A model generated the notes under the pieces. That model ran no database searches. It was given only the letters and a program-made list of their open reading frames with translations, and was not told the origin of the DNA. A stretch of 64,000 nt of DNA. Source: Burkholderiales bacterium. GTDB taxonomy: Bacteria; Pseudomonadota; Gammaproteobacteria; Burkholderiales; SG8-41. Position numbers and translations under genes: made by a program. Position 1 is the first letter of the stretch; the number at the start of each line of letters is the position of its first letter. Location: positions 216,868 to 280,867 of the forward strand of contig DATAJS010000001.1 in assembly GCA_036262035.1 (NCBI GenBank), in the 5' to 3' direction. Positions 36,117-41,252 of the stretch are shown in pieces.

Positions 36117-36251
36117 GGCTCACCTCCATCCTTGTCTTTTCCGCGGGCAAGCGATGCTAGCCCGCCCCGCAGCCGTCGATCAATCGCCGCGCGCCTCGCG
36201 ACGGCCGCTGCTCTGTGCTACTTTCGATCTTTCGACGCAGGAGGAGTCCAC

Positions 36252-37151
36252 ATGTCGATAACCTTCAAAAAGCTCCACCCGCTCTTCGCGGCCGAGGTCG
36301 GTCCGATCGACCTGCGCGAGGTGCGCGACCGCGACACGCTCGCTGCGATCCGCGCGGGCATGGACGAGCACGCCGTGCTGGTGTTCCGCGACCAGAAGTT
36401 CACCATGCAGGAGCAGGTGGACTTCGTGAAGCGCCTCGACGGTCACATGCACACCAAGACCGGCATCTCGGCGCTGATGAAGAACCGCCTCGGCGACGTT
36501 CCGCTCGGCGACATCTCGAACGTCGATTCCGACGGCAAGATCCTGCCGCGCGAGGACCGCAAGCGCCAGTACTCGCTCGCCAACCGCCTGTGGCACACCG
36601 ACGGCTCGTTCCAGGATCCGGCCGGCCGCTACTCGGCGCTGTTCGCCGTCAACATCCCGCCGGTGCGCAACGACACCCAGTTCGCCGACATGCGTGCGGC
36701 GTACGACGCGCTCGACCACGCGATGAAGAAGACGATCGAAGCGCTGCACGCGCACCACTCGATCGCGTATTCGCGCCAGACCCTGGGCTTCGAGTTCTCG
36801 GCGGCGGAGCAGGAAGCATTGAAAGGCGCGATCCACCCGATCGTCCGCGTCAACCCGCGCACCGGACGCAAGTCGGTGTACGTCGCCTCGCACGCATTCA
36901 AGGTGATCGACTGGCCGGTACCCGAAGGCCGTCTCCTCATCTGGGAGCTGATGGCGCTCGCGACGCAGCCCCACCTCGTCTACAGCCACGACTGGCGCCC
37001 TGGCGACCTCGTGATCTGGGACAACCTCGCGACGATGCATCGCGGCGTCGCTTTCGACGATTCGCAGCATCCGCGCGAGCTTCGCCGCGCGACGAGCATC
37101 GACGTCCCGTACGAATTCGAGAACGCCACCGGCGAAGCACAGGCCGCATAG
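36252..37151 (+). CDS. TauD/TfdA family Fe(II)/2-oxoglutarate dioxygenase
   Basis: A 299-residue enzyme with the iron facial triad HxD (H115, D117 in LWHTDGSF) and the distal His in DNLATMHRGVAFDD (about 263), plus the 2-oxoglutarate Arg in the HPRELRRATSID tail. Relatives oxidise taurine, 2,4-D and alkyl sulfates. Substrate is unknown here. AGGAGG lies 8 bp before the ATG. The next gene starts 9 bp after its stop, so this enzyme is the first gene of the unit that contains the UGSC pair, divergent from the Cys-nucleophile hydrolase. Confidence 0.93.
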   Translation: MSITFKKLHPLFAAEVGPIDLREVRDRDTLAAIRAGMDEHAVLVFRDQKFTMQEQVDFVKRLDGHMHTKTGISALMKNRLGDVPLGDISNVDSDGKILPREDRKRQYSLANRLWHTDGSFQDPAGRYSALFAVNIPPVRNDTQFADMRAAYDALDHAMKKTIEALHAHHSIAYSRQTLGFEFSAAEQEALKGAIHPIVRVNPRTGRKSVYVASHAFKVIDWPVPEGRLLIWELMALATQPHLVYSHDWRPGDLVIWDNLATMHRGVAFDDSQHPRELRRATSIDVPYEFENATGEAQAA

Positions 37152-37160
37152 GGGGAAGCA

Positions 37161-38204
37161 ATGGCAACGGAGCTGAAGTCACGCAAGCACACCGCGCAGG
37201 ACATCGCAGGCGCGATGGAGCTCTGCTACACCAACGGCTGGACCGACGGCCTGCCGGTCGTGCCGCCCACGCCGGGCCTCGTCAGCGCGATGCTCGAAGC
37301 CGCGGGACTGGAGCCGGACAAGCAGCTTGCGTTCATCGAGAACCGCCAGGTCTCGGTGACTGCCGAGAAAGTCGCGATCAACGCAGTGATGGCCGGCTGC
37401 AAGGCCGAATACATGCCGGTCGTCGCCGCCGCGATCGAAGCGATCGGCGATCCGCTCTACGGCTACCACGGTCCCGCGACCAGCACCGGCGGCTCGGCGG
37501 TGTTCATGGTGGTGAACGGACCCATCGCGAAGAAGCTCGAGATCAACTCGGGTGACAACCTCTTCGGTCCGGGCTGGCGCGCGAACGCGACGATCGGCCG
37601 CGCGATCCGCCTCACGATGCGCAATGTCATCGGGACCCTGCCGGGCACGCTCGATCGCAGCTCGCTCGGGCACGGCGGCAAGTACTCGTTCTGCATCGCC
37701 GAAAACGAGACCGACAGCAGCCCGTGGCCGCCGTTCCACACCACGCGCGGCTTCAAGGCCGATCAGAGCGCGGTGACCGTCTTCGCCGCGCTCGCGCCGC
37801 ACCAGTATTCGAACCAGTTGAGCGCGAAGCCCGAAGGACTGCTCGACACCGCGTGCGCGCACATGAAAGTGTCCGCGGGCTCGGGCCGGCAGCCGCAGTA
37901 CGCGATGGTCTTCCCGGCCGAGCACCAGGCCATCATGAAGAAAGCCGGCTGGGCGCGCGAGGACGTGCAGCGCTACGTCTTCGAGCACGCCAAGATCTCG
38001 GTCGCGGAGCTGAAGCGCCTGCACATGAAAGCCGGCGAGCCGGCGGCCGACGACGAGAAGAACATGATGGCGATCGTGGAAACACCGCAGGACCTGCTCG
38101 TGTTCGCCGCCGGCGGCATGGCGGGCGTGCAGTCCGCGTTCATCCCCGGCTGGGGCGGGAAAGCGGGGTCGCAGAGTGTGACCAAAGAGATTCGAGTTCC
38201 TTGA
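37161..38204 (+). CDS. UGSC-partner protein of unknown function
   Basis: A 347-residue protein I recognise by its conserved blocks rather than by a known activity: ELCYTNGWTDGLPVVPPTPG near the start, then VAINAVMAGCKAEYMPVV (with one conserved Cys about 78), then INSGDNLFGPGWRANATIGR, then YSFCIAENE, then HQAIMKKAGWAREDVQRYV. As I recall, proteins of this kind are usually encoded next to, or fused with, UGSC-family proteins; here the UGSC gene follows about 105 bp downstream. No membrane segment or signal. It is tightly linked to the upstream dioxygenase (9 bp). Confidence 0.8.
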   Translation: MATELKSRKHTAQDIAGAMELCYTNGWTDGLPVVPPTPGLVSAMLEAAGLEPDKQLAFIENRQVSVTAEKVAINAVMAGCKAEYMPVVAAAIEAIGDPLYGYHGPATSTGGSAVFMVVNGPIAKKLEINSGDNLFGPGWRANATIGRAIRLTMRNVIGTLPGTLDRSSLGHGGKYSFCIAENETDSSPWPPFHTTRGFKADQSAVTVFAALAPHQYSNQLSAKPEGLLDTACAHMKVSAGSGRQPQYAMVFPAEHQAIMKKAGWAREDVQRYVFEHAKISVAELKRLHMKAGEPAADDEKNMMAIVETPQDLLVFAAGGMAGVQSAFIPGWGGKAGSQSVTKEIRVP

Positions 38205-38207
38205 CCA

Positions 38208-38292
38208 CCGTCAGCCCCGCGCAGGCGGGGATCCATTTTTCGAACGTCAAGATGGATTCCCGACCGCGCTGACGCGCGTCGGGAATGACGAT
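38208..38292. repeat. Two dRS3-like palindromes in the leader of the selenoprotein gene
   Basis: CAGCCCCGCGCAGGCGGGGA at about 38210-38232 and TGGATTCCCGACCGCGCTGA-CGCGCGTCGGGAATGACG at about 38252-38290, in opposite orientations. They lie between the partner gene and the Shine-Dalgarno AAAGGAGGTC of the UGSC gene. Confidence 0.75.
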
Positions 38293-38310
38293 CAACGAAA
38301 GGAGGTCAGC

Positions 38311-38847
38311 ATGGCAGTCCAGATCCTCGACCCAACCACCGAAGTGAACCCACGGCGCATCGCGTATGCACCGCGCCCGGGAACGCTCGAAGGCCTGACC
38401 ATCGGCCTCGTCGACAACACCAAGCACAACTCGGACGCGATCCTGCTGCGCATCGCGAACATCCTCGAAGAGAAGCACGGCGCGAAAGCGCACCTGATCA
38501 AGAGGAAGAAGAGCTCGGGCGCGGCGCCTCACACCGAGATCGTCGACGAGTACAAGGCGTCGTGCGACATCATCGTCGCCGGCGTCGGCGACTGAGGGTC
38601 GTGCTCGTCGGGGAGTGTCCTCGACAGCATCGTGTTCGAACAACACGGCATTCCGTCGGCTTCGATCATCACCGACGTGTTCAAGGCGACCGGCGCGGCC
38701 ATGGCTAAATCCTGGGGCCTGCCGGATTTCCGTTTCATCGCGATGCCGCACCCGATCGCGAACCTGACGGACGAGCAGCTCGACGCGGCCGCGGAAGCGG
38801 TCACGCCGCAGGTCGTGCAGCTGTTGCTCGAAGGCCAGAAGGAATAA
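38311..38847 (+). CDS. UGSC-family selenoprotein (in-frame TGA read as selenocysteine 95)
   Basis: A 178-residue protein if the TGA at 38593-38595 is decoded as selenocysteine. The first 94 residues end IIVAGVGD; the next codons read Sec-G-S-C-S-S-G-S-V-L-D, then VFEQHGIPSASIITDVFK and continue in the same frame to a normal TAA at 38845-38847. The UxxC motif is thioredoxin-like in spacing and probably redox active. AAAGGAGGTC sits 4 bp before the ATG, an unusually perfect site. The parts before and after the TGA have equal coding character, which argues against a pseudogene. The UGSC family is known from environmental selenoprotein surveys; its biochemical function is, to my knowledge, not established. 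Confidence 0.9.
38593..38630 (+). promoter_or_regulatory. Putative bacterial SECIS element
   Basis: Directly after the Sec codon a hairpin can form: TGCT (38602-38605), one bulged C, GTCGGGG (38607-38613), loop AGTGT (38614-38618), then CCTCGAC and AGCA (38619-38629). All 11 pairs are canonical or G-U. The loop begins 18 nt after the TGA and has G as its second base, in line with the bacterial SECIS pattern I recall (apical loop roughly 16-37 nt downstream, G in the first two loop positions). The hairpin lies in the coding region, as in E. coli fdhF. Confidence 0.82.
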
Positions 38848-38852
38848 CGTGG

Positions 38853-38926
38853 GGGTCTGACCGGTTTCATCGGTCAGACCCGATCATTCTCGGGGTCTGA
38901 CCCCAGGTTCACCGGGGTCAGACCCC
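38853..38926. terminator. Two perfect hairpins after the selenoprotein gene
   Basis: GGGTCTGACCG/CGGTCAGACCC (38853-38881, 7-nt loop) and GGGGTCTGACCCC/GGGGTCAGACCCC (38892-38926, 9-nt loop), followed by GGTTTATTTT. They belong to the repeat family at 4842 and 53981 and may attenuate transcription into the amidohydrolase gene. Confidence 0.6.
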
Positions 38927-38950
38927 GGTTTATTTTGAGAGAAGAGAAAC

Positions 38951-39802
38951 ATGCCCATCATCGACTCCCAAGTCCACGCCTACGAGGCGAACACGCCGCA
39001 ACGCCCCTGGGCCTCGACGCCGAACTGGCCGGCCCACGTCACCGGCGACGAGATGATCGCGGAGATGGACAAGCTCGGCATCGACGGCGCGATCTTCATC
39101 TCGGCGTTCGCGATGTACCGCTACGACGGCAGCTATGCGGTCGAAGTGCAGAAGAAGCACGGCGACCGCTTCGCGATCATCAAGCCGGTGGATCCGGCGG
39201 ACCCCGCGGTGGCGGACGTCATCGCCGACTGGAAGAAGACGCCCGGCACGGTCGCCATCCGCATCATGCTGGCCAGGGACGGCAAGCATCAGCCCGGCGA
39301 TCCCGGACTCGACCGCATCTGCAAGGAAGCGGTGCGCCACGATTTCCCGCTCAACATGCTGTGCTGGGGCAACATCGACGCGGGCATCGCACTCGTCGAC
39401 CGCCATCCCGACACGCGCTTCATCATCGACCACCTCGGGCTCATGCAGCCGCGCACGCCGCCGGCCCCGGCCGAGCCGTGGGCCGACCTGCCGAAGGTGC
39501 TCGACCTCGCGAAGCGGCAGAACGCGGTGATCAAGGTGAGCGGCGCGTGCACGCTGTCCAAAGAGCCGTATCCCTACCCGGACATCTGGGACCCGCTGCA
39601 GCGCGTGTTCGACGCGTGGGGTTTCGAGCGCTGCCTGTGGGGCTCCGACTGGACGCGCGCGTTCGCGGTGTGCAATTACGAGCAGGCCACGAAGCCTTTC
39701 CTGGAGACCAACCGCCTGAGCGACAGCGAGCGCGCCATGCTGATGGGCGGCGCGTGCGAAAAGGCTTACCGCTGGTCGCCCAAAGGACGCGCCAAGAAGT
39801 AA
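38951..39802 (+). CDS. Amidohydrolase family protein (amidohydrolase 2 type)
   Basis: A 283-residue TIM-barrel metal-dependent hydrolase. The short metal motif MPIIDSQVHAYEA (D5, H9-type HxA/HxH variant) opens the barrel. RFIIDHLGLMQPR (about 158-170) gives another His ligand, and LWGSDWTRAFAV (about 229-240) gives the metal Asp. Such enzymes decarboxylate or hydrolyse cyclic acids (aminocarboxymuconate decarboxylase-like, or lactonases such as 2-pyrone-4,6-dicarboxylate lactonase). The last is an attractive but unproved idea for a catabolic cluster. GAGAGAAGAG precedes the start. Same direction as the UGSC unit, beyond two hairpins. Confidence 0.87.
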   Translation: MPIIDSQVHAYEANTPQRPWASTPNWPAHVTGDEMIAEMDKLGIDGAIFISAFAMYRYDGSYAVEVQKKHGDRFAIIKPVDPADPAVADVIADWKKTPGTVAIRIMLARDGKHQPGDPGLDRICKEAVRHDFPLNMLCWGNIDAGIALVDRHPDTRFIIDHLGLMQPRTPPAPAEPWADLPKVLDLAKRQNAVIKVSGACTLSKEPYPYPDIWDPLQRVFDAWGFERCLWGSDWTRAFAVCNYEQATKPFLETNRLSDSERAMLMGGACEKAYRWSPKGRAKK

Positions 39803-40067: not shown

Positions 40068-41252
40068 ATGACCACCCGCCTCCCCCTCACCGGTTTCAAA
40101 GTCATCGACCTCACCGCGCATCGCGCGGGCCCGACCGCGGTGCGCCAGCTCGCCGACTGGGGCGCGGACGTGATCAAGATCGAGCCGCCCGGCGGCGCCG
40201 CCGGCGACGCCACCGGCAGCAAGCGCAGCGGCCCCGATTTCCAGAACCTCCATCGCAACAAGCGCAGCCTCACGCTCAACCTCAAGTCGCAAGAAGGCCT
40301 GAAGATCTTCTTCGATCTGGTGAAGACCGCCGACGTCGTCGTCGAGAACTTCAAGTCGACCGTGAAGTTCAAGCTCGGCATCGATTACGAGTCGGTGAAG
40401 AAAGTGAATCCGCGCATCGTCTACGGCAGCATCTCGGGCTTCGGGCAGGACGGCCCGTACGAAGGCCGGCCGGGCGTCGACCAGATCGCGCAAGGCATGG
40501 GCGGGCTGATGTCGATCACCGGTCATCCCGGACAGGGTCCGGTGCGCGTGGGCATTGCGATCAACGACACCTCCGCCGGCCTGCTGCTTGCCAACGGCCT
40601 CGTGCTCGCGCTGCTCGAGCGCGAGCGCAGCGGCGAAGGCCAGTGGGTCTCGACCTCGCTCATCGAAGCGCAGATCTACATGCTCGACTTCCAGGCCGCG
40701 CGCTATCTCATCGCGGGCGAAGTCGCGGGACAGGAAGGCAACAGCCACCCCACCGCTTCGGGCACCGGCATGTTCCAGACGTCCGACGGCTACATCAACG
40801 TCGCGGCGACCGGCGACAACCTGTGGGCGCAGTTCTGCAAGGCGGCGAAAGCCGAAGACCTCCTCACCAATCCGAAGTACGCGACCACCGCCGACCGCGG
40901 CAAGCACCGCAAGGAGATTCTCGCGAAGATCGGAGAGATCATCCGCGGCAACACCAACGCGCACTGGGTGGAGACGCTCAACAAGGTCGGCGTGCCGTGC
41001 GGCCCGATCAACACGATCGACAAGACGTTCGCCGATCCGCAGGTGCAGCACCTGAAGATCGCGACGCCCATCGACCATCCGGTGTACGGGCCGCAGAAAG
41101 TGGTCGGCCAGCCGATCCACCTCTCGCGCTACCCGCAGCCCGAAAAGCTCAAGCACACGCCCGAGCCGGGGGAGCACACCGACGAGATCCTCAAGGACCT
41201 CGGCTACGACGCCGCCGCGATCGCGGCGTTGAAGGAGAAGCGCGCGGTCTGA
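40068..41252 (+). CDS. Family III (CaiB/BaiF) CoA-transferase
   Basis: A 394-residue acyl-CoA:carboxylate CoA-transferase. The conserved start TGFKVIDLTAHRAGPTAVRQLADWGADVIKIE is kept in parts. SISGFGQDGPYEGRPGVDQIAQGMGGLM is the CoA-binding region. The catalytic Asp is D167 in VGIAINDTSAG. VPCGPINTIDKTFADPQV and the C-terminal lid follow. It forms covalent aspartyl-CoA during transfer, normally activating carboxylic acids for breakdown. It stands beside the dioxygenase/amidohydrolase genes and directly abuts (0 bp) the convergent flavoenzyme gene. Confidence 0.95.
   Translation: MTTRLPLTGFKVIDLTAHRAGPTAVRQLADWGADVIKIEPPGGAAGDATGSKRSGPDFQNLHRNKRSLTLNLKSQEGLKIFFDLVKTADVVVENFKSTVKFKLGIDYESVKKVNPRIVYGSISGFGQDGPYEGRPGVDQIAQGMGGLMSITGHPGQGPVRVGIAINDTSAGLLLANGLVLALLERERSGEGQWVSTSLIEAQIYMLDFQAARYLIAGEVAGQEGNSHPTASGTGMFQTSDGYINVAATGDNLWAQFCKAAKAEDLLTNPKYATTADRGKHRKEILAKIGEIIRGNTNAHWVETLNKVGVPCGPINTIDKTFADPQVQHLKIATPIDHPVYGPQKVVGQPIHLSRYPQPEKLKHTPEPGEHTDEILKDLGYDAAAIAALKEKRAV

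Follow-up and report, generated by a model that had tools for sequence, protein, structure and literature searches.

The locus considered here raises two questions, namely whether the TGA that divides a gene at positions 38311–38847 (+ strand) is a stop or a codon for selenocysteine (Sec), and what the complete protein would do. The gene lies in a window of 64,000 nucleotides, the whole stretch that was analysed, from a Burkholderiales genome of 7.14 Mb in 32 contigs, and a preliminary description made from the sequence alone had taken it for a selenoprotein of the UGSC family hidden by the in-frame TGA, with no mention of the neighbouring gene or of a likeness to GRDB. The answer favoured here, at a probability of roughly 55%, is that the UGSC protein, with Sec at position 95, and the product of an upstream partner gene would form a two-part enzyme serving the surrounding catabolic genes, with a mechanism like that of GrdB and PrdB, the Sec subunits of glycine and D-proline reductase.

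The in-frame TGA as a probable selenocysteine codon

The gene is composed of 94 codons, the TGA at 38593–38595 (+), 83 codons and a TAA, and the sequence agrees with the two same-frame stretches (94 and about 83 codons) and the context G-D-TGA-G-S-C-S-S given in the preliminary description. A Shine-Dalgarno-like sequence, AAAGGAGGTC, was located at 38298–38307 (+), ahead of the ATG as claimed, and the statement that the second half has no good start of its own also held, the sole frame of the post-TGA half being one of 71 residues from the GTG at 38632, without the motif. When the TGA is counted as Sec, the joined protein has 178 residues, with Sec95 and cysteine (Cys) 98 in the UxxC motif UGSC. 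It matched the Pfam family UGSC (PF24696) over residues 4–173, across the TGA, with 193.5 bits (cut-off 25; E = 4.2e-57), and the NCBIfam family NF041046 (UGSC_fam) with 144.9 bits (cut-off 125). The frame is beyond chance, because the PF24696 match spans the TGA at this E value, and the family assignment, with which the predicted structure described below is also consistent, was upheld by both matches.

The TGA is predicted with very high confidence to be read as Sec95, a reading that draws on Cys in relatives, on TGA in most other copies, on the Sec machinery of the genome and on a recurrent hairpin after the TGA. The alignment of the joined translation with its homologues is continuous across the TGA, and Cys homologues at position 95 were found as the preliminary description had expected: Cys occupies this column in 49 of 52 aligned database relatives (the first 53 listed, P0122–P0174, with P0123 omitted), the other three, P0145, P0150 and P0153, having G, W and R, respectively. 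A motif scan of the same 53 relatives found C-G-x-C/S in 50. The motif of P0150, GDWGSC, places Trp at the Sec/Cys site, which may reflect either translation of a TGA as Trp or a true change. Among the shorter UGSC database entries, 62 of the 67 listed terminate in SGM[GA]C, which are the residues before the TGA in two copies of this genome that are fused to the partner domain; the family is often stored cut short, and its entries illustrate how gene callers conceal genes with an in-frame TGA.

All four components whose search had been proposed in the preliminary description were present in the genome: tRNA-Sec (75.8 bits; gathering score 47), SelB (462.7 bits), SelA (603.8 bits, directly before SelB) and SelD (417.7 bits). 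SelD has an in-frame TGA of its own (L045, C23:21953-22882) and is probably itself a selenoprotein.

The hairpin claimed to follow the TGA was found as a structure resembling a selenocysteine insertion sequence at 38607–38625 (+), with AGTGT in its apical part, starting 11 nucleotides 3′ of the TGA and identified by its fold and its recurrence elsewhere. The 48 nucleotides from the TGA onwards fold with −21.2 kcal/mol and z = −3.31 (200 dinucleotide shuffles); no Rfam match was obtained at the hairpin site. With positions numbered from 0 at the T of the TGA, the helix 16–20:26–30 showed mean pair probabilities of 0.83–0.86 in 72 TGA rows from the fetched loci, compared with 0.22–0.37 in seven Cys rows, and in control segments shifted by −120, −60, +60 and +120 nucleotides the maximum for any pair was 0.16. 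Mean folding energy did not separate the two groups (−15.9 in both Sec and Cys rows), and mean z separated them weakly (−1.14 and −0.47, respectively). A helix of five base pairs, constant in its spacing downstream of the TGA, was shared by 61 of the 69 distinct sequences compared, which come from many phyla; the best site outside that hairpin had 23. Covariation exceeded all 500 shuffles at two pairs, with values of 66/69 (shuffle maximum 56) and 69/69 (maximum 59), and did not exceed them at the remaining seven pairs examined, in a comparison that is not a pure test of the hairpin, the same bases being also constrained by protein coding.

The partner gene and the spread of UGSC copies

In this genome, 21 PF24696 matches were found, 20 of them above the cut-off, and the motif codon was TGA in 19, a Cys codon in one (GDCGTS) and neither in one (ADMGVS). 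With the TGA in 19 of the 21 copies, a one-off error of sequencing can be dismissed. The 21 copies need 10 changes, at least five of them by well-supported branches, in a tree built from 104 UGSC rows, and they are therefore old and diverse, not the product of a single recent burst. UGSC was detected in five of 398 genomes in a sample of the phylum, this one included and at most eight candidates being scored per genome, and the other four had one or two matches each. Among 60 relatives, counting this genome, 39 had UGSC, including all 36 of its taxonomic family. The richest genome (G689), a member of that family, had 58 matches, of which 54 contained TGA and 51 had TGA as the sole stop; this assembly (5.7 Mb, 98% complete, 2% contamination, about 330 contigs) may mix strains. 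Larger selenoproteomes, of 57 and 63, have already been published (PMC13188914). If the two-part reading is true, selenium would be a major requirement of catabolism in this betaproteobacterial family, of which little is known.

The partner gene (37161–38204, + strand; 347 residues) is predicted to encode the second part of the enzyme on the grounds of its constant pairing with UGSC. It had no match in Pfam or NCBIfam, and the 23 partner members recovered from the fetched regions of this genome gave six stray single hits to Pfam at E ≤ 1. None of these hits was to Gly_reductase, the Pfam family of GrdE/PrdA, to which the partner may nevertheless be remotely related. By tblastn, the partner domain was found at all 21 UGSC copies of the genome, fused in 10, within 130 nucleotides in another 10 and about 1 kb downstream in one (L030). 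The fused copies form single open frames of 531–623 codons. In eight of them the TGA lies between the halves, and the partner half would therefore be made only by readthrough of the TGA, past which the frame continues for up to 477 codons. The partner was also present in all five regions fetched by UGSC from the four other genomes of the phylum.

The pairing was also seen from the other side, in an independent sample collected by the partner only (the best 80 of 582 loci). The UGSC domain was found in 73 of these 80 loci, on the same strand in all 73, with a median gap of 92 nucleotides (60 of 73 within 200 nucleotides and three above 1 kb). The loci span Pseudomonadota, Chloroflexota, Rokubacteria, Methylomirabilota, Binatota, Poribacteria, Acidobacteriota, Nitrospinota, Actinomycetota, a haloarchaeon and others. 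In the haloarchaeon, Natrialba asiatica (L125), a Cys-type UGSC adjoins the partner. The seven loci where UGSC was not found comprise three that break at or near a contig end (L058, L061 and L065) and four from Poribacteria (L082, L087, L089 and L093); SelB was present in all three Poribacteria genomes tested (L082, L089 and L093). The 73 loci provided 76 motif rows, with TGA in 70, TGC in five and, by the motif rule, GCG in one (L107, whose sequence GDCAGCC has Cys one residue earlier). When the five phylum regions were added, the 81 rows comprised 73 with TGA, seven with TGC and one other. Among named strains, Sheuella amnicola NBD-18 (L098) has a TGA copy, and Candidimonas nitroreducens SC-089 and Parapusillimonas granuli LMG 24012 have Cys-type copies. 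SelB was above the cut-off in 19 of the 20 genomes of Sec loci tested, as against two of 14 named control genomes, and was present in the twentieth (L054) only as pieces across several contigs. The genome of the Cys-type locus L107 also had SelB above the cut-off.

These counts bear on an alternative in which translation truly stops at the TGA, or the TGA arose by mutation, leaving two truncated proteins or a pseudogene. Standard translation does end at the TGA, as this explanation says, but it is hardly tenable given a TGA at the same motif in nearly all copies of this genome and in most motif rows elsewhere, the long frames past the TGA in the eight fused copies and the complete Sec machinery.

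With considerable confidence, UGSC and its partner are predicted to act jointly as the two parts of one enzyme. The AlphaFold2 model of a natural fused copy of the Cys type had a predicted local distance difference test score (pLDDT) of 92.9 and a predicted template modelling score (pTM) of 0.92, and a defined packing of the two halves against each other is therefore predicted. All 7,999 scored database candidates matched the partner profile, and the names among the 120 partner matches listed read "hypothetical protein"; if the prediction is true, an uncharacterised family with at least 7,999 database matches gains a role.

Predicted fold and probable relation to GrdB and PrdB

In print, the UGSC family has been described as having no known role and a likely thioredoxin-like fold, and a fusion of UGSC to a conserved domain, Unknown_1, which may be the present partner, was reported in the same paper of 2008 (PMC2398784). 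The gene studied here resembles the published family in passing both family cut-offs, in its UGSC motif with an in-frame TGA and in its Cys homologues, and differs in the constant partner, the predicted flavodoxin-like fold and the 21 copies. The AlphaFold2 model of the UGSC protein (pLDDT 93.5, pTM 0.88) shows a fivefold alternation of strand and helix, in which residue 95 directly precedes a helix. Foldseek and VIA-align gave only generic scores for its structural neighbours, which were flavodoxin-like, receiver and other Rossmann-like chains, and no thioredoxin appeared in the 50 rows listed. The model predicts a flavodoxin-like fold and does not support the printed thioredoxin-like suggestion, which may nevertheless hold. 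A thiol oxidoreductase of the ordinary thioredoxin-fold kind, acting in antioxidant defence, a role close to that suggestion, would suit the UxxC motif; it is considered unlikely in view of the predicted fold and its neighbours, and of a constant partner and many copies near catabolic genes, which are unlike a housekeeping redox protein.

A probable remote sequence relation links UGSC to proteins of the GRDB family of Pfam (PF07355), which includes GrdB and PrdB. A profile of 35 GRDB/PrdB-like proteins of the Cys type, found from one protein above the PF07355 cut-off, was compared with UGSC by hhalign and gave a probability of 50.6%, with 46.9% for the paralogues of this genome alone, 71.3% after trimming and 77.6% with the C-terminal part alone. 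The alignment places Sec95-Gly-Ser-Cys98 of UGSC on C-P-V-C of the GRDB-like proteins. The controls were lower, with at most 1.4% in 60 column shuffles, 0.1% for the reversed profile, 0.4% for the partner and, for the protein clusters of the fetched loci (38, less two that were UGSC itself, giving 36 real families as controls), a maximum of 20.8% followed by 2.2%. From these profile alignments, UGSC is a probable but unproven remote homologue of GRDB/PrdB-type proteins. A search of this genome for a GRDB gene gave none, and the same search was positive in no control genome either.

For glycine and D-proline reductase, attack of the Sec subunit on a carbon of the substrate, followed by cleavage of a selenium–carbon bond, has been proposed (PMC10298544), and a GrdB/GrdE-like pair, FarB/FarE, has been proposed to cleave the C–F bond of fluoroacetate in Synergistota (PMC10838667). 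UGSC shares with GrdB/PrdB the UxxC motif with Sec at the same place, in a remote profile alignment, a predicted two-part architecture and many copies that may differ in substrate (PMC10838667), and differs in scoring below the Pfam GRDB cut-off and in a partner whose members have no common Pfam match. With FarB/FarE it shares a Sec subunit, a second subunit and a proposed attack on a non-amine substrate (PMC10838667); FarB and FarE are homologues of GrdB and GrdE, in anaerobes, whereas UGSC and its partner belong to different families. The titles, opening abstract text and selected passages of the literature on UGSC gave no account of the partner pairing or of a relation to GrdB. The constant partner, the natural fusions, the predicted fold and the remote GrdB/PrdB link would move the family from "role unknown" to a testable two-subunit enzyme.

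Proposed chemistry and gene neighbourhood

In the mechanism proposed, UGSC and its partner would constitute a two-part reductase, its small substrates being those of the catabolic clusters where the genes seem to lie. The substrate would be held between the two parts and attacked by the Sec95 selenolate at an activated carbon or at the bond to a leaving group, as by the Sec subunits GrdB and PrdB. In copies that have it, Cys98 would then resolve the intermediate, giving an Se–S bond, and a thiol or a thioredoxin-reductase-like donor would provide for regeneration. Each of the many paralogues would have a substrate of its own. Such a resolving step cannot hold for every copy, because Cys98 is missing from three of the 21 copies of this genome, one of them with TGA, and one copy lacks both. 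Such GrdB-like chemistry, argued by analogy, is put at slightly below even odds. Still more tentative is the wider proposal that UGSC and its partner may represent a new superfamily of two-part, Sec-driven, bond-cleaving catabolic enzymes of the glycine-reductase type, spread through many bacterial phyla (with the Cys form in a haloarchaeon) and diversified, within one family of betaproteobacteria, into dozens of copies per genome that each have their own substrate; there the one selenoprotein family would make up most of the selenoproteome.

The missing Cys98 would also suit a non-redox enzyme, a racemase, isomerase or lyase of the Asp/Glu-racemase type in which Sec or Cys serves as base or nucleophile. 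The predicted alpha/beta fold, with a nucleophile at the start of a helix, is compatible with such an enzyme, and one relative touches the family Asp_Glu_race (E = 0.026). This match is weak and confined to one of 72 rows, and the UxxC pair, which is more typical of redox turnover, is retained through Cys98 in 18 of the 21 copies; the explanation is regarded as improbable. A role of UGSC in the binding or detoxification of metals or metalloids by way of its Sec appears very unlikely. Organometal chemistry has been proposed for other selenoprotein operons, those of the SAO system (PMC13188914), but the neighbours of the UGSC genes named by family searches are of other kinds, and no metal resistance gene was recognised in the lists of open reading frames, the annotation of which is not exhaustive.

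Several results weigh against the two-part reductase, in addition to the missing Cys98. The window protein had no match to GRDB (cut-off 22 bits) at E ≤ 10, and the best of 72 aligned UGSC rows was a single one at E = 0.23; the hhalign relation covers only 62–94 aligned columns, the GRDB-side profile contains no characterised GrdB or PrdB enzyme, and for neither family was a solved structure related by sequence found. The 23 paralogous partner domains have no Pfam family in common, the conserved Cys of the partner motif MAGC is absent in two paralogues, and in the four loci from Poribacteria no UGSC could be recognised near the partner. Regarding Sec, the hairpin reached z < −1.5 in only 10 of the 19 TGA copies of this genome and not in the other nine, and SelB was above the cut-off in three of the six genomes of TGC loci (L094, L112, L117, L125, L133 and L136). 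A gene for a reductase-like flavoprotein, finally, occurred in only five of 85 outside loci.

Such a flavoprotein, thioredoxin-reductase-like and with a CxxC motif, is encoded between selB and the tRNA-Sec gene of this genome (L040:8673-9743, contig C31), and a homologue with 46% identity adjoins a fused UGSC copy (L026:9206-10156). The L040 flavoprotein is a candidate electron donor.

The genes around the UGSC gene comprise a TauD/TfdA-family dioxygenase-like gene just upstream of the partner (36243–37151, +, start approximate; PF02668, 190 bits), with which an operon is only presumed, an amidohydrolase family 2 gene (38951–39802, +; PF04909, 94 bits) and a coenzyme A-transferase family III gene (40068–41252, +; PF02515, 383.7 bits). 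The neighbouring genes differ from locus to locus. TctC-type receptor genes are too common in this genome to carry weight as neighbours: those of the TctC/Bug kind number at least 150 (all from the 150 scored among 607 first-look candidates), an extreme expansion of carboxylate uptake proteins. The gaps flanking the UGSC gene (38205–38310 and 38848–38947) contain, by eye, repeat-like inverted sequences, with several GGGGTCTGACC-type arms in the 3′ gap.
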